From assembly GCA_038049695.1 (NCBI GenBank), contig CP142456.1:65189922-65253921 (forward strand): a DNA stretch of 64,000 nt, read 5' to 3'. The notes below the pieces were generated by a model that had not been told where the DNA came from, made no database searches, and was given only the letters and a program-made list of their open reading frames with translations. A program made the position numbers and the translations under genes. Below are positions 11,099-61,481 of this stretch, in pieces; position 1 is the first letter of the stretch; every line of letters starts with the position of its first letter. Source of the stretch: Cinnamomum chago. Lineage: Eukaryota > Streptophyta > Magnoliopsida > Laurales > Lauraceae.

Positions 11099-19780
<8,682 letters not shown>

Positions 19781-20974: not shown

Positions 20975-21569
20975 TTCTAGAATTAGTATTAGCTACCCTG
21001 TTTATTTTAATTCAGTCAAGTGCAATTTAAAGATATAACCAATCAGGTCACGGCCCCCAGCATCTCCCAGTATTATAAGTGCTTACATAAATGTTAAAAT
21101 TTGGGGGGCTCAGTCATCTGATCATGTCAATTTTGTTTGCATCCCTAGTGTCCCCAAACCATGGATGGAAAGTTGCAAGGTGGGGCAGCTGCCCCCGTGG
21201 GCAATCCAGTAGGAGACAGCCTGAGTCTGATCCCATTTGGGTTGGCTCTCTGGGCAGATATCTGCATAAAGACCATATTAGAAGACAAACGGCCCTTAGT
21301 TAAAATAAATGATGGGCAAGTCCTGATTCTGGGGCCCTGGTTATTTGTTTAGAGCTGATAACTAAAGGGGCTAAACTTGGGAAAGTTTTCTGTGCTCCCG
21401 GCCCATCCCAACCCAGCCCTTTGCTTCTTATTGGATGGATGAGATTTGGGGTATCACATTGATGAGATGAGCTCCGGACTGCATTCATCAACCCAGCTAG
21501 CCATGATGAGGTTCACCGACCGATTGGACCTACTCCTTTGGATGCAATAAGTACATGTCCTAATACATG

Positions 21570-31006: not shown

Positions 31007-31386
31007 CTAAATAGGAGGACAAAAGCAGAGCTTAATGAACCCAATTGGATCCGCCTATCATGTCCATTCAGGCCCAAACAGCCCAAACTATCCAAATTCT
31101 CAATAAAATATAGTGTCAGCCGAGAGGGCTTCTTTCAACAGTAGGAAATTCCAAAAGAGAAAAGACTGCAAATAAAGTACTTTTGAACCTCACTAAGGAC
31201 ACGTAAATGCATTGAAATTTAAGGGCCTGTTTGTTTATGTAAATGCATTGAAATTGAATATAGAGGAATTTACCAAATAAATCCCTGTAGGTCCCTATAC
31301 CACTCATGGGGTCCCAAGAAAACCGTATTATCGGATTAGGTCCTCAAGGTCTGTATTTATATTTTTTTTTGTATTTTGGCTCTATG

Positions 31387-31425
31387 GCCGATATCGGCAG
31401 TCATATTGGCCGATATCGGCCGTTA
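31387..31425. repeat. Left GATATC palindrome pair
   Basis: GGCCGATATCGGC at 31387 and GGCCGATATCGGCC near 31411 are separated by AGTCATATT. The arrangement (palindrome, ~9 bp AT-rich spacer, palindrome) is the same as in each unit of the right-hand array. Confidence 0.85.
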
Positions 31426-31796
31426 TGCGACATCCCTATTTCTCTCGTCCCGAGTGTGTTTTGCTCACAACTCTCATTTATGCGACATCCCTATTCCTCT
31501 CCTCGACTGTTGTATGGCGATTTTTTCCCTTTCAGAAACCATGTAAAAAAACTTCTGTGAATCGGTTGTTGGACTTCATTAAGAGGTAGGTTTGTACATT
31601 AAAGACACATCTTAATGCACTATCTTCTCTAATGTGACATCGTAACATTGGTTTATCTCCATTAATGCATTCAAGTTAACCCTAGATCTCTGTAAAATCC
31701 TCTGTCATCATTAGAGTATCCGGTCTCTAAACCAGGCTTTCTTTAATGCTTATAGAAGAACTTTCTGTTTGAAGGGTTTGTAAAAAACCCACTTTC

Positions 31797-32022
31797 ATCA
31801 ATAGAGTACACATTCTCCTTTATTTCATTCATGTTAACCCTAGAACTGTCGAAAATCCACACTCATCATGAATACCCTAGAACTGTTTGAGAGAGCGTCA
31901 TGTTGAAACATCAATAGAGTACCCATTCTCCTTTATTTCATTCTTGTTAACCCTAGAACTGTCGAAAATCCACACTCATCATGAATACCCTAGAACTGTT
32001 TGAGAGAGCGTCATTTTGAAAC
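31797..32022. repeat. 113 bp tandem duplication upstream of the transposase gene
   Basis: ATCAATAGAGTAC.CATTCTC and the following bases through GAGAGAGCGTCAT.TTGAAAC occur at 31797 and 31910, nearly identical. Further degenerate relatives (TTAACCCTAGA, AAAATCC, TCATCA) lie just before, from 31670. It occupies the presumed promoter region of the transposase gene. Confidence 0.85.
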
Positions 32023-32398
32023 ATTCTGTGTAGTCGTTTTCAGGGTTCTGTTCAATCCAGCAGCTGGAGCTATGGTGTGTCGTGCATTCCATTTTATTTA
32101 TGTTTAGTGTGCATCAGTAAATCCATAAATGTTATTGTCTAGTTTGTATGTTTGTATATTGTTCTATATTGATCTTGCAAACATGGATACTTCAACGCCA
32201 GTATCTCATCCAATTGGAGTTGGTTGTCTTGCTGATTGATGAACAATAGGAGAATAGGTGGAATACGGTCTAAATATTTTTTGAATAGCAGCTAGGGACA
32301 AATGAAATGGGTCTAATACCGATCTGTTGTAATTGTCATCCTGAATCTGCCTACATTTTACTGATATCTTCATAATTTTCCTGTGATTTAATGATAGC

Positions 32399-34953
32399 AT
32401 GTCAGACAGAGAGGTGTTGTTCATATTCCACTATGACGGTGACTTTCAATTTGACATCAGCCGTCCGGTGTACAGTGGAGGAAAACAAAAAATGAAATAT
32501 TTATCGTCAGACATCTCTTATCAATGCCTGGCTAACGAAGCAATGGAATCATCCAATTGGGATACAACCATGCAGAATTTAAGCATGCAATACCTTCATC
32601 ACAACGGACGGGCATTCTCAATGGCTAGCATTGACGATGATAATGATGTTCGTCTTATGTTCAAAGCATCCGGAAATGAAACGAATGGGATATACTTGTA
32701 CGTCTCTAATAGTTCGAACAACAATGAAAGTATAAGGGGAGAGGACAGGTATGCCTACTAATTGTCTCACTAAATTTTAAATGCGAAATTAATTATTTAT
32801 GTTAGCACTTGCTTATTTATGCCCCGATTCATTGTAGGTTACGAAGGACCGCAGTAGGATTTAAGAGTCCAAAAATGCCAAGGAGTTCGTCAGCCAGTTT
32901 GAAGAGGGAACAAATGAAGTTATCAACAAGTCCTCGAGAACAACCCACCGCTGATCTCCGCGATGACACAGACATGCAATATCCATCTGTGCGGGATGAT
33001 GATAATGTATGCAATGAGGCGTTAGATGGTCATATCGACCTTGGGATGATGCGTGCTGATGATATCCATCTTAACCGACATCCCTCTAATGGAGAGCTTC
33101 ATTCAAAACCAATCTTCAAGGCCGAAAGTTGCAGGGATGAAGTCAATCAAACCAATACCGATCTACGGTCTAATGAAATTCCAAAAGTTGATTTTGATGA
33201 TAAAATGGAGCCTGATGGCATGGAAATGGAATTTGGCAACAACTCCGCACGAGAGATGTGGATTGGCCGTGTTTTTCCTGATCGACAGATGTTCCGGAAT
33301 ACGTTGGCGAAGTTTGCAATATACGGTAACTTCACTCTTAAACATTTGAAGACCAACATGACCAAAGTGACTGCACGATGCAAAGATCAGGATTGTCCAT
33401 GGCGTATTCATGCTTCGATTGTCGAATCAGGACCACAATTTAAAGTTAGGACGTACAATCCTAACCATCGATGCTCAAAGCCACTGATGGGCATGGCACA
33501 TCAACAGGCAACCTCGGCGCTTATTAGAGAGTTCATCATGGAACGGGTCAGGCAGAATGTGAATTTGAAACCGAAGGAGATCATGAATGACTATCAGATG
33601 GAGTTTGGTTCAATAATTAGTTACAGAAAGGCTTATATAGCAAAGGAGATGGCACTTTGTATTGTGCGAGGATCATATGAAGAGTCCTTCCAGCTGCTAC
33701 CCCGTTATTGTAAGGAACTTGAGTTGACTAACCCTGGCACTGTGACAAACATAGATACCACTTCGGATGACCGTTTCAGAAGATTTTTTTGGGCGTTCGG
33801 ACCGTGCATAAGATCTTACACGTCTTCGTTGAGACCAGTGATTGCTGTAGACGGTTCACAACTCCGAGGCAAGTATCCAGGTGTGTTGCTTGTTGCCGTG
33901 ACGAATGATGACAACCATAAGCTACTTCCCATCGCCTTTGCCTTTGCCGAAGCCGAGCGGCGCGATAGCTGGGAGTGGTTCCTTGCGAACTTGTCCATAT
34001 CTCTAGGAGAGCCAACTAACCTTACTATTGTTTCAGACCGGCAGAAGGGTCTCATTCCAGCGTTGAAGAACACCATACCGCATGCAATGCACTGTTACTG
34101 CTGCCGTCACATTGCTGAGAACATCAAAGCTGCTTTCAGTGACGGGGCAATCGTGATGAAATTTTGGTGTGCAGCAACGTCATACAGACCATGCGAGTAC
34201 GAGGCTTATATGACAGATATCCGTGCAGTTAGCCAGGAGGCTTTCAATTACATTGATGCAATTGGGCGGCAACGGTGGGCAAATGCATACATAGAAGGCC
34301 GTCGGTACGACATGCTAACTAGCAATGCAGCCGAGTGCACTAATAGTCTCCTAAAAGACACGCGAGTCCTGCCCATTACGAAACAAGTTGAGGAGATACG
34401 AGCAAAGTTAATGGACTTCTATCAAAAGCGGCATCTTCAGTCTGAAAGCATAACAACTCGTCTTACCCCGTATGCGGAGAAAGTTCTCGGTCAAGAAATG
34501 GATGAAGCTCGCCGATTGCATGTTCGTGTGGCTGGCATCGTAGAACTCCAGGTTCAGTCTGCGGAGTATGTTGACGTTGTTGATCTCGAACGGAAATCCT
34601 GCACATGTCGGAAATGGGAGATATTGGGTATCCCGTGTTGCCATGCATTGGCTGCAATGAAAATGAGAAACTACGATCCATACGAATTCTGTGAGCATTG
34701 GTATTTTGCGAGCACGTATCGTACAACGTACAGTGAAGTGATTCATGCTACCCGTGACAGCAAGCAATGGGAGCACACAGCCGAATTGAGAGTTATTCCA
34801 CCAATGTCCAGTAAACAGCCCGGACGCCCGAAAAAGAACAGGATTCGGACTGAAGATATTGGCCGTGTTCGAAGGGCAGTAACGTGCTCAAATTGCAAGG
34901 GAGAGGCCACAACCGTGGAAGTTGTCGCAATCCTCCCGTGCTCAGTTGACTAA
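32399..34953 (+). CDS. MuDR-type (MURA-like) transposase, two exons, ~821 aa, frameshifted C-terminus
   Basis: Exon 1 is 32399-32748 (ATG at 32399), the intron is 32749-32837 (GTATGC...TTGTAG), and exon 2 is 32838-34953; the Arg codon is split AG|G and the frame continues. Exon 1 is a ~117-residue N-terminal region (VLFIFHYDGDFQ, PVYSGGKQKM) as seen in plant MuDR transposases. Near residue 256 begins the MuDR DNA-binding domain (PF03108) with TARCKDQDCPWRIHAS and NHRC. The MULE catalytic domain (PF10551) starts near residue 450: VIAVDGSQLRGKY (first Asp), LTIVSDRQKGL (second Asp), and CCRHIAENI; the third acidic residue is probably the Glu of SNAAECTNS. A SWIM zinc finger CTCRKWEILGIPCCHALAAM follows near 703. 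At the very end the zinc knuckle starts TCSNCKG but the frame shifts, so its His and last Cys are lost. Otherwise no stop interrupts it. Codon quality suggests a fairly recent or domesticated element. Confidence 0.88.
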
Positions 34954-35459: not shown

Positions 35460-36175
35460 AGACTCCCTTAACTGAGGCTGAAAAAAACAGGTCATGTATA
35501 ACTATCGCCGATATCGGCCATAATTTCAAACTCAGGCTCCCTTAACTGAGGCCATAAAAAAACAGGTCATGTATTAATACGGCCGATATCGGTCATAATA
35601 TCGACCGATATCGGCAAAAATTCAGACTCAGGCACCCTTAACTGAGACTGTAAAAAAACAGGTCATGCATTAACAGATAAACCGATATCGGTCATAATAT
35701 CGACCGATATCGGCCAAACAATCAGACTCAGGCACCCTTAGCTGAGACTATAATAAAACAGACATGTACAGAATGGCCGATATCGGTAATAACATCGACC
35801 GATATCGGCCAAAAAATCAGACTCAGGCTCCCTTAACTGAGGCTTTAAAAAAACAGACATCTACAGAATGGCCGATATCGGTCATAATATCGACCGATAT
35901 CGGCCGAAAAATCAGACTCAGGCACCCTTAACTGAGACTATAAAAAAACAGGACATGTACAGAACGGCCGATATCGGTCGATATTATGACCGATATCGGC
36001 CATTCTGTAGATGTCTGTTTTTTTATACTCTCAGTTAAGGGTGCCTGAGACTGATATTTTGGCCGATATCGGTCGATATTATGACCGATATCGGCCATTC
36101 TGTAGATGTCTGTTTTTTTAAAGCCTCAGTTAAGGGAGCCTGAGACTGATATTTTGGCCGATATTAGACATATGG
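35460..36175. repeat. ~98 bp tandem array with nested palindromes, ending in a ~200 bp-arm inverted repeat
   Basis: Each unit has CAGACTCAGGCNCCCTTAAC, then TGAGRCTNTAAAAAAACAGG, then GGCCGATATCGGTC, ATAATAT and CGACCGATATCGGCC. CCCTTARCTGAG marks units near 35464, 35527, 35625, 35727, 35827 and 35925, mostly 98-102 bp apart. At the centre (about 35983, in GGTCGATATTATGACC) the sequence turns around: units at 35985-36175 are inverse copies (CAGTTAAGGGTGCCTGAG, then GGCCGATATCGG). The last two forward and the two inverse units could form a near-perfect ~200 bp hairpin. It lies ~500 bp after the transposase stop. Confidence 0.88.
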
Positions 36176-36178
36176 TTA

Positions 36179-37003
36179 TGTGGGCTATGCCCATTTGTCT
36201 AACATTAAAATGAAGTCTTCGCTTTGCACTTTCTACTAAAAACCCGAGGCTACTATACAAATAAAATGCCGCAAGGAAAAGCCTATATGAAAGTTTGTTA
36301 AATGTGATAGGGGATGTCTTGGCTCAAGATAAGAAGTAATATAAAAATAATCATTATTGCCATCAATTATCAAAGCCTCGTGATCCCAACAATGTTAGAT
36401 CGGTTACATAAATCATGTTGTTTGTCATTTTAATTACTATCCTTACCTAAAATCATTGCATAGGTTACACATCATCAATGTTGTACTTGTGCTACTTTCA
36501 TCCATGTCCACTTTGGCTTATCCTTCTTCTTGAGGGGCTATCCACCTAGAGAATGCCTTGCCGTATGTAGAAGAAAATGCTCCTTCGAGCTTCCAATGAG
36601 AAGAGAGGAGACATAATTACTATCATGCATCCATAAGCATTTACCTTTATAGGCTTAAATGACTAAAATGCATATTCATTATCTCTTCCTTTAAATTAGC
36701 TTATCTCTTATCTGTTTTTGTATCCAATCTTGTCTCCTTAAAACTAGCTAATCCATTGACATAATAATCTTCTCCTAAAAACTATTTGTATCATATTCAT
36801 ACGAACGATGTGCATGAAGCCCAGTCTTCTTTGAAGGCATTTCAGATAATAAACTCCTAGGCCTCACATGGGAGATTACTACTTTACAAAGGCTTGAAGT
36901 CTAATTGAAGAGGCCCACCATTATGAAGCTGTATGATTTTTTTTATATGGGAATTTTATAATAAATTCCTAGGCCCCACATGAAAGATTATTACTTAACA
37001 AAA
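36179..37003. other. Non-coding DNA between the MuDR element and the LINE
   Basis: No gene is seen. CTAGGCCYCACATG.GAGATTA words occur twice (near 36858 and 36969), a weak direct repeat. The end of this stretch is the LINE target duplication. Confidence 0.4.
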
Positions 37004-49017: not shown

Positions 49018-51398
49018 TGTTACGGTCCAACCCGAGTTAATCAAAATTAACTCAAATTAATCGAGATTTAACATGGTTTAAGCGTGATTAATCAAATTAA
49101 GAGTGATTAAGGACTAAAATGGATCGAATTAGTTTCTTTGGAGGAATTTATACATAATGGAATGAATGTGAGAGGAATTCACTTAGTTGCGTTGAATTTA
49201 ACTTTAAAGTGATGGAATTAAGGACTTTTCCGTAAATACGGATTTGTACGTATTTTATCGAATACGGTCAAATTTGATATCATCGTGTGTATCTCGATGA
49301 GTACCATAACTTTCATAATATATACACTTTCATTTGACTTAACATGAAGCACGTAGGTCTTGAAGTGACTCAACTTAGAAATGTGCTTAAACCAAGGGAT
49401 TAATGTGCAAAATATATGTGATATGTGTCACAGGAATAAGTTGCATGTAATGAAGTGTCATTCCACCAACCTTCATCCAAGCAACTTGAGAAACTTTGAG
49501 GTTTCTTCTTAGTTTCTTGCTATCCAGTGATTGAATCAAGGAGTTTTCAAGTGAATTTTGCTAGAAAAAGTGATTTCCATCTTCTCCATCACCTTCTCCA
49601 TCAAGTGGGTTGTTGGTTTTCTTAGAGCTTGGTGATTTGGACTCAGGTAGAGCTTGGAATAAGTGGTTTTGTGTTGCAATACAGCAAAAGAGGCAAGTAT
49701 AATCAGTTCTTCATGATTGAGTGTTAATTGATGTAGTTCAAAATTAGATTCAAAACCCATATGGGATAGTGATATAGATTCAATGAAGGGATTGTATGGT
49801 GTTGAATACAATAGAAGTGTCTATTTGACTAGTAATAAAAGTGTATGAAGTAAGGATTGAGGTGGGAACAAAAGGTTCCATGTGGTGTTATAGGTTTTAG
49901 ATTGAAACAAAAAAAAAAAAAGAATTTTGTATCAGTTCTGGTGTAGCTCGGTCGACCGGCCAAACTGCAGTCTGTTCTCTAGAAGCCTGATGGGGCCATT
50001 TTTCTGAATTTTCACTTACAACTGTCGGGCGACCGGCTGATAGCTCGGTCGACCTTGCACACAGGGAGAATGTCGACCTGGCCTTCGCAGGTCGACCGAG
50101 CCCTAGTTCATGGGGTCGACCGACCAATGCCTCGGTCGACCGGGTACTCTGAGAGAAAACTGAGTTTGTCTAAGATTGTACATAAGTTCAAATGTAGTTT
50201 TGAGATTCATTAGACTGTGATCAATGAATCATAAAGGCATTATGTTTTCCATAAAATGTTGTATTTGGCTTGTCATCCAATTTATGTTAAACCAAGGTTA
50301 ACTAAAGCAAGTAGTAATATGTGGATAGATTGGACTAAATGAACATGATTTCAGATTCATATTTTGAATTCTAAAGCGTAATGAGTGTTTCAAGGTTGTT
50401 CATGTCTTTATATCTCCATTAGTGTTAATTCAAGGGGTTTCAATGTACACACTACATATCTTGTAATGTTCATCGAGAATAACACGTACATCGAACATCG
50501 AGAATGACACTTGAATGGATGGTATTAGCTACTTGTTGAGTTGTTTATTGAATTAGAATTGTTAAAGGAAATGAAATGAATCCTTCTTGATGCTTGGGTC
50601 ACGAATGGTGCACCCTTACGCCCTATGCCTAAGAGGATAATGATATTGAATGAAAATGAGTTGCTACTAAGTTGATTAGTAAGTTGGCACTACATAGTGA
50701 TCTCTATAAGCTCATTGAGCTGATTCTGCTGCAGCCGATTATTTGGGAGTGTTCCGGAGCTCCGTGGTGAGATCAATAGTCCCTGACCCGGGCTTTGATA
50801 AGATCCACAATAAATGAATCCTTCCGTATGGAAGAGAAAATCCTCTCCTTTGAGGGAGATGGCAATGGAATTGAAATACTATTGTAGTTTGCCAAATAAA
50901 GAGACTCTTATTGCTTATGAGTTGGAATTGGAATTGAACCAATCTAACACATAATGAGATGAATGAAATGTATCGTTAGCATGTTAAATCATGAAATTGT
51001 TTATACATTGCTGAATTGTGAAATTCATAGTGTTATTGATGACATTATAGGCACAGCTGCCCTTGCCGGTCCTTCTGAGACCACAGCGCAATCAGAGACG
51101 TCCGGTACGGTTCCTCCAGGAGGACTAGTTGAATGGAAGTAAAACTTTGAATTGTGATGAGTTGAAACGTTTCACAATTTTGATCCTTGCATTGTATTTA
51201 AATATGCAAGTGATAAGTTTTGTAAATAGTGTATATGAGTTTTGTTTTATACATGAGCAATGTATATTTGTAAAATTTCTGCATAATGTATTTGATATCT
51301 CTTGTGAATTTTAATGCGTTGAGATTCACGGGAGTAAGTATGCGACACGACTCGGTGTTAACTCGGATTAGTCCTAATCTCGGGTTCGAGTCGTGTCA
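49018..51398 (+). repeat. 5' LTR of the chromovirus
   Basis: 2381 bp, TG...CA. It contains a GC-rich patch at 49950-50145 with repeated CGGTCGACCG-type palindromes, standing out from the AT-rich remainder. It is read in the sense direction into the primer site at 51410. Confidence 0.93.
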
Positions 51399-51600: not shown

Positions 51601-52767
51601 ATGGCATCTGGCTCAGGTAGCGGAGGTAATGAGAATGATAATCCTGAATATGTGCATAATAGGAATGAAGGTCCTACACCTACACCTCCTACTCCTCCTA
51701 CTAGCGATGCTAAATTCACTGCTATATTAGAACAATTAGCAAGGAGCCATGAAGCTCAATTGACTATGCAAACACAGCAGCTGAATATGCAAACACAAAT
51801 TGCTGCAATGTTACAAGTGCAAACTCAGATGCAGGCTCAGATTTAGACTCCACAGGCACCACCAGTACAACCATTACCTAATGTGGGTACTCAGGTGGTA
51901 GTACAGACAAAGGAGAAAGATGCTAATGTTCTTTATGAACAGTTTAGGAAGCGTGGGGCCATTGAGTTTCAGGGCAAAGAAGATGCCCTAGTAGCTGATG
52001 AGTGGATACAACACATCGAAGATGTGTTCGATACCATTGTATGTACTTCAAGGCAGCGGGTGTTGCTTGCTTCATCCATGTTACGAGATGTAGTAAAAGA
52101 TTGGTGGAAAGGGATGAAAGATGCAATACTTGAAACCCCTGCAGCTACTGTTTGGGAGACTTTCCGGAAAAAGTTTGAAAGGAATTTTGTGCCAGAGCAT
52201 GTTAGACAGAAGAAAGAGTCAGAATTCCTGAATTTAAAACAGGGACATATGACTGTATCAATATATGTGCATACATTTATCAAACTGTCTAAGTATGCTA
52301 CTGAATTGATAGATACTGAAGAAAAGCGGATCAAGAGGTTCATTAATGGTTTGAACCCAACATATAAGAAGATGGTCATGGCTGGACAACAGACTATTCG
52401 ATTTGATGATGTAGTAGATAAAGCTTATACTGCTGAAGAAGTACATAGAGAAGAACAAGAACATGATGCCATTACTAGTTCTTAAAAAATGAGTGGTACT
52501 CCTTGGATGAGAAAAGGAGGCAAATTCAAGAATAAGAAACAGAAATTTGTTGCTAGAGCTGAAGTAAAACCAATTTGTGAGACTTGTGGAAAAGCTCACA
52601 AAACTGAAGCTTGCTGGAGAAACACTGGGGCATGTTTATCTTGTGGTTCTATGGAGCACAGAATGACTCAATGTCCCAGAATAAGAAGAGAGAATTTAGC
52701 TCCACAGCAACAGCCTCCTCAGAGACAGGCAGTATTTCCTACTCCTCCACAGCAGCAACGTCAATGA
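51601..52767 (+). pseudogene. Chromovirus gag with in-frame stops
   Basis: Starts MASGSGSGGNENDNPEY at 51601 and has a Gln/Met-rich linker interrupted by a TAG at about 51844 (after QMQAQI). The retrotransposon Gag core follows from about 51900: RKRGAIEFQGKEDALVADEW, VKDWWKGMKDAI, FRKKFERNFVPEHVRQKKES, FINGLNPTYKKMV. A TAA after ITSS (52483-52485) breaks it again. The nucleocapsid part holds CETCGKAHKTEACW and the knuckle CLSCGSMEHRMTQC (CX2CX4HX4C). A TGA near 52765 ends it before protease. The first and last stops differ from common sense codons by one transition. Confidence 0.85.
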
Positions 52768-55700
52768 CAACCACGTCAGAAACAAAAACCTAGGCAACAA
52801 CCACAGCAAATTAAGCCTCAGGTTGTGGGACAAATTTATGCTGCAAATAGAGAACAAGCTGAAGCTGCAGCTAATGTGGTGGAAGGTATGATTTATATTG
52901 ATCATAGACCTGCGGTTGCGTTGTTTGACCCTGGGTCTACTCATTCATTTGTTGTACCTCTATTTGTTCGTGATATGCAAAAACAGATTGAACAATTAGC
53001 ATATAATTTTACTGTTGCAACACCATTGGGAAGGAAAGTAGTATGTGAACTCTATGTTCCCCAATGTAGTGTTAACATCGGTGAGGTGTCTATGCCAGCA
53101 GATTTAGTAGTGTTGGCTATGAATGATTTTGATGTGATTTTTGGTATGGATTGGCTTTCAAAGTATAGGGCTTGTTTGGATTGTTTCCGTAAGACTATTA
53201 CTTTTAAAGTAGATGAAGCCGATGCCAGTGTGTTCTTTGAGGGAACACAGAAAGAGTTTGATACAAGGTTGGTTTCAGCAATAAAGGCTGAAAGGATGAT
53301 GCAACGTGGTTGTGAAGGCTACATCGCATTCATCACTGAAAAGAAGCCAAGGAAGGAATTAGGAGACATCCCTATAGTCTGTGAATTTCCAGACGTGTTT
53401 CCTAAAGAAGTGTCAGGTCTACCTCCAGCAAGGGAAGTGGACTTTACTATAGAGCTTGTGCCGGGTACTGCACCTATATCTCAGGCACCATATAGAATGA
53501 CACCCTCTGAATTGCATGAATTGAAGAAACAAATACAAGATTTGCTTGATAAAGGTTTTATTAAACCTAGTGTGTCACCATGGGGAGCACCTGTATTGTT
53601 TGTGAAAAAGAAAGATGGCACCCTACGCATGTGTATCGATTATAGGCAACTGAATCAGATAACAATCAAGAACAAATATCCGTTGCCTAGGATTGATGAG
53701 TTGTTTGATCAACTCCAGGGTGCAGCATATTTTTCTAAGATTAATCTTCGATCTGGATACCACCAGATTAGTGTTAGAGATCAAGATGTACAGAAGACAG
53801 CATTCAGAACCCGATATGGGCATTATGAGTTTTCTAGTTATGCCTTTTGGATTAATGAATGCACCTGCAATGTTTAGGGCTTTGATGAACAGAATTTTTG
53901 CTGCTTATTTAGACCAGTTTGTTGTGATCTTCATTGATGACATCCTGGTATATTCAAAGTCAGAACAAGAACATGAACATCATCCGAGAACAACATTGCA
54001 ATTGTTGAGAGACAATCAGTTGTTTGCAAAGCTAGAAAAGTGTGATTTCTGGCTACAGCAGGTGGCATTTTTGGGTCATATCATTACTAGAGAAGGATTG
54101 ACAGTGGATCTAGCTAAGATTGAAGTCATTACTAATTGGCAAAATCCTAAGAATGTTCCTGAAGTGAGGAGTTTCTTAGGATTGGCTGGATATTACAGAA
54201 GGTTTGTGAAAGACTTCTCGAGAATTGCAGCACCATTGACAAAACTGACTCGAAAGAATATGCCATTTGTATGGGATGATGAATGTGAGTCCAGTTTTCA
54301 GGTGTTGAAACAGAGGTTAGTCTCAGCCCCAATCTTGTCATTACCGGATGGAAAAGGAGGATTTGTTGTTTACTCTGATGCTTCCGGTATAGGGTTGGGA
54401 TGTGTGTTGATGCAAAATGACAAAGTTATTGCCTATGGCTCACGACAATTAAAAGAACATGAGAAGAATTATGCTACTCATGATTTAGAGCTCGCGGCTG
54501 TTGTATTTGCTTTGAAGCAATGAAGGCACTATCTGTATGGTGAAAATTTTAAAGTTCATTGTGATCACAGAAGCCTTCAATATTTATTCACGCAGAAAGA
54601 CATCAATTTGAGGCAACGCCGTTGGTTAGAGCTGATTAAAAACTATGACTTTCCTTTCACTTATGCACCTGGGAAAGGTAATGTCGTAGCGGATGCCTTG
54701 AGTCGAAAATCTGCTTATTTGACAGCAATGGAGCTTGGATGGGATCTGATTGATGCATTCAAAGATCTTGATGTGTCTGTTGACATCTTAAATGATCAAA
54801 AATTGCTTGCAGCAATGTCTGTTTTTGAACCGCTCCTTATCAAAGATATCAAGGCAAGACAATTTGAAGATCATGAGTTAGTGAAAATCAAGGATAACAT
54901 TGCAGTGATGCCAGATTTTGTGTTGGTTGAAGCAGTTCTCTATTTCAGAGACAGATTATGTGTACCAGCACAAGAAGATTTGAAGCAGACAATTATGTTT
55001 GAAGCTCATCACACTAGATATTCTATGCATCTAGGAAGTACTAAAATGTATAGAAATCTCAAGGACAGGTTTTGGTGGAATAATATGAAGTGGGAGATAG
55101 CAGGTTATGTATCTTCGTGCTTGACCTGTCAGCGTGTGAAATTTGAACATAGAAAACCGCCTGGATTGCTTCATCCTTTACATATTCCTAGATGGAAGTG
55201 AGATCATTTGACTATGAACTTTGTATCTGGTTTACCCATGACCAGAAGACATTATAACACCGTCTGGGTGATTGTGGATCGTCTTACGAAGTCTGCACAT
55301 TTCCTTCCATTCAGAAAGGATATGGGATTCAGTGAAATGTCCAAGTTGTTTGTGAAAGAAGTAACAAGATTGCATGGAACACCAGTTTCGATTGTATCAG
55401 ATCGAGACAGTCGGCTTGTGTCTATATTTTGGCAATCTTTCCAAAATTCAATGGGTATGAAACTTCAGTTTAGTACTGCATATCATCCACAGACATATGA
55501 ACAATCTGAAAGAACAATTCAGACCTCAGAAGATTTGCTTCGTGCCAGTGTGATGGACTTTGGTAGTGATTGGGATGAGCATCTTGCGTTGTGTGAATTT
55601 GCATACAACAACAGTTATCACTCCAGCATTGATATGACACTATTTGAAGCATTATATGGTCGCAGATGTAGGACACCAGTTAGTTGGGAAGAAGTTGGAA

Positions 55701-56263
55701 CTAGGAGTTTCCATGGTCCTACTATCATTGCAGAAACAGCTGAGAAAGTCCAGAAAGTACAGGACAGATTGAAAGTAGCCCGATCAAGGCAAAAGAGTTA
55801 TGCGAACAATCGTCGCCGTGATTTAGAGTTTGCAGTTGATGATTGGGTATTCTTAAAGACTTCTCCAATGAAAGGTACCATTCGATTTGGGTAGAAAGGA
55901 AAGCTTTCACCAAGATATATTGGACCTTTCAGAGTCAAAAGCAGAATTGGAGATGTGGCTTATCGTCTAGATCTTCCAGTGCAATTCTCCAGTATCCATA
56001 ATGTATGTCATGTGTCTATGCTTCGAAAGTATGTGGCAGATCCGACTCATATCATTAAATATGATGAAATTCAAGTTCAACCGGACATCACATATATTGA
56101 GAAGCCAGTTCAAATTATTGATACCAAGGAGCAAGTCCTACGAACCAGGATGATCAAATGGGTTAAAGTCCTTTGGGCACATCATGAACCCAGTGAAGCC
56201 ACATGGGAATTGGAAGAACAAATAGCTCGAAAGTATCCAAAGCTATTCGTTCAGGTACGTTAG
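52768..56263 (+). pseudogene. Chromovirus pol: protease, RT, RNase H, integrase, chromodomain; degenerate
   Basis: Protease near 52915 reads [12 protein letters not shown], with Pro where DSG/DTG is usual, so the active site is probably dead. RT runs from about 53460: [40 protein letters not shown] and [14 protein letters not shown]. At about 53835 the frame shifts and RT continues as [13 protein letters not shown] and FIDDILVYS (catalytic Asp pair kept). RNase H follows: [15 protein letters not shown], then TGA at 54521 in place of the usual Trp, then VADALSRKS. Integrase has HHTRYSMH...CLTCQ, another TGA at 55199-55201, VSDRDSRL and a TAYHPQT-SER block altered to HPQTYEQSER. The C-terminus after a TAG (~55892) reads SPRYIGPFRV, RLDLPVQFSSIHNVCHVSML and a chromodomain-like VLWAHHEPSEATWELEEQI. 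Confidence 0.9.
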
Positions 56264-56339: not shown

Positions 56340-58719
56340 TGTTACGCTCCAACCCGAGTTAATCAAGATTAACTCTAATTAATCGAGATTTAACATGGTT
56401 TAAGCGTGATTAATCAAATTAAGAGTGATTAAGGACTAAAATGGATCGAATTAGTTTCTTTGGAGGAATTTATACATAATGGAATGAATGTGAGAGGAAT
56501 TCACTTAGTTGCGTTGAATTTAACTTTAAAGTGATGGAATTGAGGACTTTTCCGTAAATACGGATTTGTATGTATTTCGTCGAATACGGTCAAATTTGAT
56601 ATCATCGTGTGTATCTCGATGAGTACCATAACTTTCATAATATATACACTTTCATTTGACTTAACATGAAGCACATAGGTCTTGAAGTGACTCAACTTAG
56701 AAATGTGCTTAAACCAAGGGATTAATGTGGAAAATATATGTGATATGTGTCAAAGGAATAAGTTGCATGTAAGGAAGTGACATTCCAACAACCTTCATCC
56801 CAGCAACTTGAGAAACTTTGAGGTTTCTTCTTCGTTTCTTGCTATCCAATGATTGAATCAAGGAGTTTTCAAGTGAATTTTGCTAGAAAAGTGATTTCCA
56901 TCTTCTCCATCACCTTCTCCATCAAGTGGGCTGTTGGTTTTCTTAGAGCTTGGTGATTTGGACTCAAGTAGAGCTTGAAACAAGTGGTTTTGTGTTGCAA
57001 CACAGCAAAAGAGGCAAGTATAATCAGTTCTTCATGATTGAGTGTTAATTGATGTAGTTCAAAATTAGATTCAAAACCCATATGGGATAGTGATATAGAT
57101 TCAATGAAGGGATTGTATGGTGTTGAATACAATAGAAGTTTCTATTTGACTAGTAATAGAAGTGTATGAAGTAAGGATTGAGGTGGGAACAGAAGGTTCC
57201 ATGTGGTGTTACAGGTTTTAGATTAAAACAGAACAGAAAAAGAATTCTGTATCAGTTCTGGTGTAGCTCGGTCGATCGGCCAAACTGCAGTCTGCTCTCT
57301 AGAAGCCTGATGGGGCCATTTTTCTGAATTTTCACTTACAACTGCCGGTCGACCGGCTGATATTTCGGTCGACCTTGCACACAGGGAGAATGTCGACCTG
57401 GCCTTCGCAGGTCGACCGAGCCCTAGTTCATGGGGTCGACCGACCAATGCCTCGGTCGACCGGGTACTCTGAGAGAAAACTGAGTTTGTCTAAGATTGTA
57501 CATAAGTTCAAATGTAGTTTTGAGATTCATTAGACTGTGATCAATGAATCATAAAGGCATTATGTTTTCCATAAAATGTTGTATTTGGCTTGTCATCCAA
57601 TTTATGTTAAACCAAGGTTAACTAAAGCAAGTAGTAATATGTGGATAGATTGGACTAAATGAACATGATTTCAGATTCATATTCTGAATTCTAAAGCGTA
57701 ATGAGTGTTTCAAGGTTGTTCATGTCTTTATATCTCCATTAGTGTTAATTCAAGGGGTTTCAATGTACACACTACATATCTTGTAATGTTCATCGAGAAT
57801 AACACGTACATCGAACATCTAGAATGACACTGGAATGGATGGTATTAACTACTTGTTGAGTTGTTTATTGAATTAGAATTGTTAAAGGAAATGAAATGAA
57901 TCCTTCTTGATGCTTGGGTCATGAATGGTGCGCCCTTACGCCCTATGCCTAAGAGGATAATGATATAGAATGAAAATGAGTTGCTACTTAAGTTGATTAG
58001 TAAGTTGGCACTACATAGTGATTTCTATAAGCTCATTGAGCTGATTTTACTGCAGTAGATTATTTGGGAGTGTTTCGGAGCTCCGTGGTGAGATCAATAG
58101 TCCCTGACCCGGGCTCTGATAAGATCCACAATAAATGAATCCTTCCGTATGGAAGAGAAAATCCTCTCCTTTGAGGGAGATGGAAATGGAATTGAAATAC
58201 TATTGTAGTTTGCCAAATAAAGAGACTCCTATTGCTTATGAGTTGGAATTGGAATTGAACCAATCTAACACATAATGAGATGAATGAAATGTATCGTTAG
58301 CATGTTAAATCATGAAATTGTTTATACATTGCTGAATTGTGAAATTCATAGTGTTATTGATGACATTATAGGCACAGCTGCCCTTGCCGGTCCTTCTGAG
58401 AACACAGCGCAACCGGCGACGTCCGGTACGGTTCCTCCAGGAGGACTAGTTGAATGGAAGTAAAACTTTGAATTGTGATGAGTTGAAACGTTTCACAATT
58501 TTGATCCTTGCATTGTATTTAAATATGCAAGTGATAAGTTTTGTAAATAGTGTATATGAGTTTTGTTTTATACATGAGCAATGTATATTTGTAAAATTTC
58601 CGCATAATGTATTTGATATCCCTTGTGAATTTTAATGCGTTGAGATTCACAGGAGTAAGTATGCGACACGACTCGGTGTTAACTCGGATTAGTCTAAATC
58701 TTGGGTTCGGGTCATGTCA
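56340..58719 (+). repeat. 3' LTR of the chromovirus
   Basis: 2380 bp, collinear with the 5' LTR with scattered substitutions and a few 1-base indels. The CGGTCGACCG patch lies at 57270-57470. Confidence 0.93.
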
Positions 58720-60059: not shown

Positions 60060-60790
60060 CACTAATGAGATTTTCAAATAAAGTTCAAAAAACAGGAAAC
60101 AAATTTCAAATAAATTTCTAAAAATGAAATAAATTTCAAACACGCAAATAAATTTCAAAAGATCCAAATAAATTTCAAAAGACGAAAATAAATTTAAAAA
60201 AATCTAAATAAATTTCAAAAGACGAAAATAAATTTCAAAAGATGTAAATAGAATTAAAAAAAACAAAATTAAACTCTAAAAAAACAAAAACTAATTTCAA
60301 AAACTACAAATAAATTTGAAATAACGCAAATAAATTTCAAAAAATCTAAACATTTTCAAAAGATGAAAATCAATTTAAAAAGACGCAAATAATTTTCAAA
60401 AGATGAAAATCAATTTTAAAAGATCCAAATAAATTTCAAAAAAGTGTAAATAAATTTAGAAAAACGCAAATACATTTGCCACAAACTCGGATAAATTTGT
60501 CCAAACTCAGATAAATTTGTCTTATAACTCAGATAAATTAGCCAAAACTCAGATAGACTTGTCTAGAACGTAAAGAAATTTATTTCAGAACTCAGATAAA
60601 TTTGCAAAAAACTCAGATAAATTTGTTTAGAATTCAGTTAAATTTGTCCCGAACTCAGATAAATTTGTTTCAGAACTCAGATAAATTTCCAAAATGAAGA
60701 TAAATTGTTAGAAACTCAGATAAATTTGTTGAGAACTCATATATATTTGCCAAAAAATAGATAAATTTATCAAAAACTCAGATAGATTTG
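60060..60790. repeat. AT-rich degenerate minisatellite, two linked families
   Basis: 60060-60470: ~18-20 bp units CAAATAAATTTCAAAARAY repeated about 20 times with heavy variation. 60470-60790: units AACTCAGATAAATTTGYC of ~18-30 bp repeated about 15 times. The shared core is ATAAATTT, so the second family probably arose from the first. Unit length and sequence vary too much for a CRISPR array. Confidence 0.8.
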
Positions 60791-61481
60791 CTTTTGGGCT
60801 TTGAAACCAGGTCAAACTTGACCCGACCTTACCCGGACTGGAACGGACCCTCTGGGTCATAAACCACTCATTCTAACAAAAAAAAAAAAAAAACAAGTTG
60901 AGATATAAACCACTTATTCTAACCATCAATGGTGAATGCAAAAGATGTCTCTCGTAATTGGGATGATAGTTCCACAGGAGGCACAAATCCACGGCATTAC
61001 TGAGAGAGATGATAAGTAAAACAAAATGTAAAATGACCATTCCAAAATGTAGCCACTCTGGTAGCATAATGTCATTTCATCACACACTCAAATAAGTCAC
61101 ATCATCGGAATCATGTAAAGTTACTACTGATGGAGGTAAGAAAACTGGGAAAGAGAGTGAAAAAAAAAAAAAAAAAAACACAACACCAGCATTTTCTTTA
61201 CTCATAAATCCAAGGGTGCAGGCTGCTCTGCCAATTAGCAGTGCCTTCGGGGAACCACAAGGCAATCTCTTTCCTTGGATCCTTTTGACATTTATAGAGT
61301 TGATATTTGAACATGGGCTCATTTTCACGATATACAAGTTACACAAGAACAATAGATAGTTACAGGAGCAACAAACTTCCTCTTGCACATGCGTTTAATT
61401 TTACCTGCTAAATATGAGGTGCGAGTCCTACCGAATGGGCTTGACATCCTAAAATGTTGATAGACAATTTTGTCAAATTCA
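60791..61481. other. Non-coding DNA, nothing recognised
   Basis: Poly-A runs at 60880-60894 and 61160-61177. An ORF on the minus strand at 61080-61388 has no known motif. Confidence 0.4.

Follow-up and report, generated by a model that had tools for sequence, protein, structure and literature searches.

A tandem array of palindromes centred on GATATC lies beside a transposase gene in Cinnamomum chago, and a matching pair of the same palindromes lies on the other side of that gene. The locus raises the question of what kind of element owns these sites and why they are kept. The sequence analyzed is a 64,000-nt stretch of DNA (hereafter the window), and its sites were compared with their counterparts elsewhere in the genome. 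Both the array and the twin pair are parts of a Mutator-like element (MULE) that is young and present in many copies; the copy in the window is truncated on the right.

Palindromes flanking the transposase gene

The palindrome array described in the earlier note is real: counting both strands and allowing up to two mismatches, GGCCGATATCGG is matched 33 times in the 64,000-nt window against 1.27 expected, the maximum in 100 shuffles being 6. Fifteen perfect CCGATATCGG cores are present, two at 31386-31421 and 13 within 35506-36096, and the only matches in other parts of the window, at 21253 and 53811, carry two mismatches each; the earlier note had noticed the paired palindrome across the transposase gene and nowhere else. 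The array is made up of six full palindrome pairs, a single palindrome at its start and a cut palindrome at its end, the pairs of the window being spaced 22 bp centre to centre. Of the six units of about 98 bp that had been proposed, the six pairs and their tandem arrangement stand, but unit length is mostly 95-99 bp and two of the pairs sit in the inverted part. Orientation flips at about 35965-35966, with forward units before this point and inverted ones after it, and the predicted hairpin of about 200 bp is indeed available, as 200-nt arms that are 92% complementary are separated by 58 nt. The left end of the element lies at 31263, which puts the twin pair about 125 bp inward, in a subterminal position. 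The end of the array near 36164 is a truncation of the window copy and not the end of the element, and nothing to the right of about 36164-36172 in the window matches the six copies that were extended. The features are as follows.

31263..31407, + strand: left terminus and TIR (about 145 bp), including the first palindrome; the terminus is common to copies, and the window copy is without a right end for comparison
31386..31421, no strand: left subterminal palindrome pair, 22 bp centre to centre
32399..32761, + strand: transposase exon 1, a 120-aa ORF with no Pfam match, whose N-terminus resembles that of Cinnamomum protein P0002 by eye
32809..34953, + strand: transposase exon 2, with DBD_Tnp_Mut, MULE and SWIM domains
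35460..36164, no strand: internal array, its units of 95-99 bp carrying paired CCGATATCGG dyads, forward to about 35965 and then inverted
35707..35906, + strand: left arm of the array inverted repeat
35965..36164, - strand: right arm of the array inverted repeat, ending at the truncation
36164..36172, no strand: truncation, where homology to the six extended copies stops, with no PMD exon downstream and no right terminus in the window

Several other repeats were observed in the window. Just past the truncation, at 36163-36200, a short inverted repeat (TTAGACA..TGTCTAA, by eye) may bear on how the copy was cut, and the transposase leader holds a 113-bp tandem duplication of 97% identity (31796-32024). 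Elsewhere, near-identical direct repeats (49018-50967 and 56340-58288, 7.32 kb apart, 96-98%) enclose gypsy-like ORFs for gag-pol (51883-55894) and probably mark a recent LTR retrotransposon; a minisatellite of A-rich units of about 20-21 bp occupies 60072-60791, and a 150-bp tandem repeat of about 3.8 copies occupies 18558-19118.

The element and its two convergent genes

The transposase matches three Pfam families (PF10551, 8.5e-17; PF03108, 6.1e-15; PF04434, 5.2e-10). The closest protein with a named source comes from Cinnamomum micranthum (62%), and protein P0001, which has no named source, is 97% identical. In the window, exon 2 carries a 1-nt gap near its 3' end that is absent from the other 29 aligned copies, and its C-terminus thus differs. 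A search of the genome (1.06 Gb, 14 contigs) recovered at least 63 transposase copies at 93-100% identity, the window copy included, a lower bound because 63 were scored among 4031 first-look candidates. Across the 30 copies obtained with flanks, exon 2 has a pN/pS of 0.34 against the column majority, and a premature stop interrupts the frame read in 8 of 30, or in 7 of 30 within the aligned part.

In the six extended copies, the element continues for 5-6 kb beyond the array. Five of these are complete (10085-11080 bp), the sixth (L015) stopping short of its right end, and all five have TIRs of 143-145 bp with 90-94% identity as well as perfect 9-bp target duplications, for which 8-11 bp is the MULE criterion. 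The TIRs and target duplications identify the element as a TIR MULE, and together with the transposase domains they give it the features of a MuDR-like TIR MULE. The suggestion that the blocks are the ends of an unusual non-TIR Mutator family is therefore not supported by these five copies, in which the array is internal. Of TIR matches elsewhere in the genome and in the window, 37 of the 40 scored (among 214 first-look candidates) lie within 5 kb of a scored transposase.

A second gene, on the opposite strand past the array and convergent with the transposase, encodes a plant mobile domain and an Ulp1 C48 domain (PMD-C48). Its exon ORFs match PF10536 (PMD; 4.3e-43 and 7e-13) and, in L032, PF02902 (C48; 1.6e-9), while of the middle ORFs one has no match at all and another matches a family only at chance level. 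No DUF1985 match was found among the five exon ORFs at E values up to 1. The exon ORF adjoining C48 has a histidine region that is Ulp1-like by eye, with no PF02902 match of its own. Within the C48 region of two copies (L036:3218-3511 and L031:1131-1427), an asparagine (FYNSM) follows the histidine at the position where the aspartate of the catalytic triad is usual, and the DCG cysteine motif is kept. A convergent PMD exon lies within 14 kb downstream in 56 of the 63 transposase copies, the window copy being among the seven without one. Since the PMD exons are convergent and downstream of the transposase, the array sits between the 3' ends of two convergent genes.

Distribution of the dyads across the genome

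Whether the blocks always accompany the transposase, a check named in the earlier note, has a nearly uniform answer, dyads being found downstream in 62 of the 63 scored copies. All 30 flanked copies have 7-24 perfect cores in the stretches examined, with at least two after the transposase, and 32 of the 33 further copies have at least two cores in the 0.9-1.0-kb stretch after it; in the exception, L061, a single linker anchor and a single degenerate dyad are seen. Genome-wide, 565 occurrences of the 22-bp pair were counted, against one of a reversed control pattern. The converse concern, that the blocks are an unrelated genome-wide satellite, is contradicted by the 50 pair sites listed of these 565, which reach C1:95.4 Mb and all lie in family copies or within 12 kb of them: 41 are within 12 kb of scored copies, and the other nine belong to one more family copy that is interrupted by other DNA.

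In the five complete copies, dyads lie at both ends as well as in the array. A dyad pair begins at about +126 on the left, at the inner edge of the TIR, and on the right an outer dyad occupies the matching TIR position, followed by the next one 44 bp further in and by one more about 570 bp in.

Constraint on the dyads

The dyads are far less variable than the units that carry them. Among 154 near-full-length units (of 482 nhmmer hits) from 30 copies, 11 of 3068 core cells (0.36%) depart from the majority letter, compared with 316 of 1232 cells in the 8-bp spacer and 1449 of 11515 (12.6%) in all non-core cells, spacer included. Core divergence is thus about 35-fold below that of the rest of the same units, and two 10-column runs drawn at random from the unit equal the core invariance in 28 of 20000 draws. 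The linkers at the unit ends of this family (family A) contain a further conserved inverted motif, CTCAG..CTTAACTGAG, which could be the site of another protein.

Spacing is similarly preserved. When segments of 85-105 bp were cut out by linker anchors alone, blind to the dyads, the 138 segments from 30 copies contained 267 perfect dyads of 276, the other nine having one mismatch, and in 138 of 138 the pair was 22 bp apart. Neighbouring perfect dyads less than 60 bp apart (n=221, 30 copies) are separated by 22 bp in 201 cases, 23 bp in five and 21 bp in one, the remaining distances being 44 bp in six (at right ends), 55 bp in five, and 32, 35 and 56 bp once each.

The sites nonetheless can mutate. 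Lower-ranked copies (110 segments from 26 of 33) have 195 perfect dyads of 220 and keep the 22-bp distance in 106 of 110 pairs; C>T or G>A accounts for 24 of the 29 dyad changes in these copies. Dyads can therefore be lost, yet young copies keep them; inserted copies would decay, apparently by mutation of methylated C, while the transposing lineage would retain its sites. The CpG observed/expected ratio of the array is 1.01-1.13 in six copies and falls to 0.35-0.60 when the dyads are masked, the rest of the element having 0.75-0.80. In the core columns of the left pair, the mean minor-letter fraction is 0.37% (0.93% at their CpG positions) against 0.96% at non-CpG and 2.7% at CpG positions in other 5' non-coding columns (30 copies), a weaker signal because the copies are so alike.

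These patterns bear on the proposal that the array is a neutral minisatellite hitch-hiking in a young element. Such an origin would suit the free variation of unit number and orientation, but it is contradicted by the roughly 35-fold lower divergence of the cores, the near-fixed pair spacing, and the turnover of TIR and array dyads in step between the related families described below, so that we regard it as extremely improbable.

Array orientation and the hairpin

Judged by eye, 24 of the 30 flanked copies have forward units followed by inverted ones, two are cut within the array and four contain inverted units only. Among the 33 further copies, both orientations are present in 14 and a single one in 16, and three could not be scored; the stretches scored were only 0.9-1.0 kb long and may have missed some forward units. 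Inversion of the array is thus common and not universal, both orientations being present in 38 of 63 copies in the stretches examined. One-orientation arrays are commoner in lower-ranked copies (rank being identity to the window copy), which have more stops, an association that is only suggestive, and a protein tree of 30 copies and three outgroups is poorly resolved on whether such arrays are ancestral. The hairpin was rejected as a conserved feature of the family, as 20 of 63 copies have one orientation only in the stretches examined, while the palindromes are kept.

Structure could be the reason why the array persists, and the earlier note had suggested, as one possibility, that the hairpin is a source of small RNA that silences the element. 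In the form considered here, convergent read-through would yield RNA in hairpin or double-stranded form and thereby silence the family, as MuDR is silenced by Mu killer, a precedent described in the available part of PMC3440606. The folding of the window array RNA (z-score -40.7 against 20 shuffles), the head-to-head arrays scored by eye in 24 of 30 flanked and 14 of 33 further copies, and the convergence of both genes on the array are in line with this idea, and an siRNA hairpin may form as a side effect. However, both orientations accompany only the 38 copies just mentioned, the measured constraint falls on the 10-bp cores and their spacing, a self-silencing hairpin is not expected to spread, and sister families kept dyads though their sequence changed. 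An inverted duplication of transposase coding DNA like that of Mu killer was absent, the long inverted repeat of the window consisting of array units only. A role as small-RNA source is accordingly considered decidedly improbable.

Two sister families with different dyads

The PMD exon search yielded 150 scored matches among 2906 candidates, of which 71 were assigned to family A (93-100%, two of them partial) and 79 have 69-86% identity. From these 79, four copies (L090, L091, L096 and L097), on which two sister families B and C rest, were chosen by identity or open frame before their arrays were known, and an array was found in 4 of 4. The dyads of all three families have the 8-bp centre CGATATCG in common, which is flanked by the arms GGC/GCC in family A and by TTGT/ACAA and ATAGT/ACTAT in the sister families.

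In family B (L090 and L091; PMD 77%), the genes converge as in family A, with a tandem array of 98-bp units lying between them. Compared with P0001, the transposase has 82% identity in L090 (residues 361-688) and 76% in L091 (residues 575-687). The array lacks CCGATATCGG in both copies; its dyads have varied centres and degenerate partners, the units of L090 containing GTTGTCGTTATCGACAAC-type dyads with a degenerate partner exactly 23 bp away in six cases. At the left end of L090, GTTGTCGATATCGACAAT occurs three times together with a fourth, degenerate dyad at 21-bp spacing, and at the right end TTGTCGATATCGACAA occurs once. The GATATC centres nearest the termini are about 128-132 bp inside in L090, compared with 130 bp in family A. 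The TIRs of this one copy are degenerate, and its target duplication is imperfect (7/9 by eye), no exact one being found by script.

Family C, represented by L096 and L097 (PMD 76-77%), has in L096 a transposase of 82.6% identity over residues 379-689. Dyads of the type ATAGTCGATATCGACTAT number 11 in L096 and 9 in L097, 16 of the 20 being perfect over 18 bp. From one dyad to the next, the distance is 22, 44 or 66 bp throughout L096 (10 of 10) and in 7 of 8 cases in L097, the odd one being 45 bp. Those of L096 lie between C48 and the transposase, and the stretch of L097 ends before any transposase match. At the left end, read in one copy, ATAGTCGATATCGACGCT with one imperfect arm lies about 124 bp inside an apparent terminus that was placed by weak alignment.

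Families A, B and C therefore share the dyad centre, the 21-23-bp spacing, a position near the terminus and an array between the genes, and differ in the arms. Within each family, the TIR and array dyads are of matching type at the ends that were read (both in B and the left in C, one copy each).

Beside the dyad array, on the transposase side, a second tandem array was observed in families B and C (116- and 103-bp units, respectively), and a tandem-repeat search found none at the corresponding place in the window copy of family A.

L090:648-1016, second tandem array, family B
L091:2769-3132, second tandem array, family B
L096:3223-3561, second tandem array, family C
L097:3485-3964, second tandem array, family C

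The presence of arrays between convergent 3' ends in all three families (on the C48 side only for L097) would suit a 3'-end or insulator element, in which a host factor bound to the dyads ends transcription or separates the two genes, and head-to-head arrays would present the same unit orientation to each gene. This reading is improbable, as the same dyads also stand at the edges of the TIRs, a long way from the 3' ends, and a host factor should not need a different dyad in each sister family. Because the listed pairs lie in or near family copies and the sister dyads differ, the binder is more likely encoded by the element than by the host.

It has also been considered that the dyads are purely transposase recognition sites, with the array a by-product of slippage at a duplicated subterminal site, retained because additional binding of transposase promotes transposition or restrains it by titration, and with no anti-silencing function. 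A dyad does lie inside the TIR at both ends, the TIRs of MULEs hold transposase binding sites, and MULEs that carry additional tandem TIRs can reach higher numbers, as outlined in the accessible sections of PMC3310237. The array, by contrast, is 4-6 kb from either end, occupies the interval between the genes in three families with different dyads, and consists of units without a TIR match outside the dyads (window repeat search), and this explanation appears somewhat unlikely.

Candidate binding protein and proposed function

Of the uses listed in the earlier note, a transposase-binding or regulatory array comes closest: the array is best read as a set of sites for a protein of the element, an interpretation that has comparative support, while the identity of that protein is divided between two candidates. 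The reading favoured here, which by analogy with VANC we think reasonably probable, is an internal operator array of a recently active MULE, whose dyads would be candidate sites for a self-encoded, family-specific, VANC-like protein. The joint turnover of TIR and array sites points to one binder reading both, and is hard to explain otherwise. Such a protein may be a dimer, as proposed from the palindromic form of its sites, and could occupy both dyads of a neighbouring pair from the same side of the helix. Bound at the TIRs, which precede both genes, it would influence transposition or the promoters. The array would multiply the sites, thereby holding the protein on the DNA of its own family and countering silencing, as VANC does on VANDAL repeats. 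The anti-silencing role is inferred from this likeness, and the head-to-head inversion would be a secondary rearrangement.

On present comparisons, the PMD-C48 protein may be the binder, and the transposase may be so as well, each at what we judge to be somewhat short of an even chance. The DNA-binding domain of the transposase is 84% identical between A and B despite their different dyads, which is as compatible with another binder as with a handful of key changes, and the first 120 residues are only 23-40% identical. The stretch between PMD and C48 is 33-49% identical between A and C, and 71% over the 66 residues read of B, compared with 64-71% in C48 and 76-77% in the first PMD exon of C. 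At the level of sequence, protein divergence between the families thus favours neither candidate decisively.

Relation to known systems

The VANDAL elements of Arabidopsis, with their VANC proteins, are similar in several respects: as described in the available parts of PMC5735166 and PMC10398659, they are MULEs with non-coding tandem repeats of a short family-specific motif, the motif arrays turn over fast between related families, and a second gene has variable regions. Family A likewise has a family-specific short motif in non-coding tandem repeats. VANC genes with an Ulp1 domain (KIU) are reported in the accessible portion of PMC13317346, and the C48 gene places the present element among the KIU/Ulp1-bearing MULEs. 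VANDALs have degenerate or absent TIRs, whereas the TIRs of family A are well conserved (143-145 bp, 90-94% identical); those of family B are degenerate in the one copy read. Here, unlike in VANDALs, the motif is a palindrome in two-turn pairs that also stands at the TIR edges, the second gene is a PMD-C48 gene convergent with the transposase, and binding of the motif is predicted only. VANC motifs are not called palindromic, the string 'palindrom' being absent from the main text of PMC5735166. The five exon ORFs of the second gene gave no match to DUF1985, the domain of VANC genes, and family A has intact TIRs; membership in VANDAL is not claimed.

Other MULEs resemble the element in part. 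MuDR-type TIR MULEs share the SWIM transposase, the 9-bp target duplication, the TIRs and an antisense PMD gene, and the available part of PMC6446971 mentions no palindrome array in them; it also describes aphid MULEs with a minisatellite after the transposase ORF. The ULP1-bearing MULEs of grapevine, melon, rice and Arabidopsis (PMC2528002, PMC13317346, as far as available) have an Ulp1-like region downstream of the transposase, in either orientation and in both TIR and non-TIR MULEs; the main text of PMC2528002 nowhere uses the word 'tandem'. Rehavkus, which in the accessible part of PMC6446971 is MULE-related and has a 9-bp target duplication and a minisatellite before the 3' TIR, is found there in insects and annelids and carries a PHD finger, whereas the transposase here has DBD_Tnp_Mut and SWIM domains and its closest named relatives are from plants. 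It was rejected as an identity for the element, as the transposase has no PHD match and its protein matches from named organisms are all from plants.

Outside MULEs, the subterminal motifs bound by TnpA in Spm/En and the subterminal repeats of Ac in maize are many copies of short motifs bound by an element protein, and they control expression and transposition. These elements differ from family A in belonging to other superfamilies, in having their motifs near the ends, and in not being known to carry an array between genes.

As a MULE, the element is ordinary, and antisense PMD and ULP1 genes are already known from the available parts of PMC6446971, PMC2528002 and PMC13317346. Literature searches for the letters of the palindrome found no paper, and none of the titles or abstract openings found described a palindromic or dyad array in a MULE. 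As far as the literature searched, part of it in excerpt, shows, what is new is the combination of palindromic, phase-locked, family-specific arrays matched to the TIRs.

Implications

How VANC picks its own family and yet changes targets has been called enigmatic in the part of PMC5735166 available. The three sister families described here, in one genome and with a common layout and centre and three sets of arms, make such a specificity switch testable by arm swapping, and they link the sites in the TIRs and those in the internal array to a single specificity. They also suggest that the strategy is not confined to the TIR-less VANDALs. More tentatively, with a likelihood that we place a little under even, a non-VANDAL lineage of TIR MULEs may use a self-recognition code, in which a self-encoded protein would read dyads that combine the CGATATCG centre with arms particular to each family and that stand both in the phase-locked array and at the TIR edges. 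Protein and dyads would switch arms together and so give rise to new families. If this is true, each family would activate, mobilise or protect only itself.
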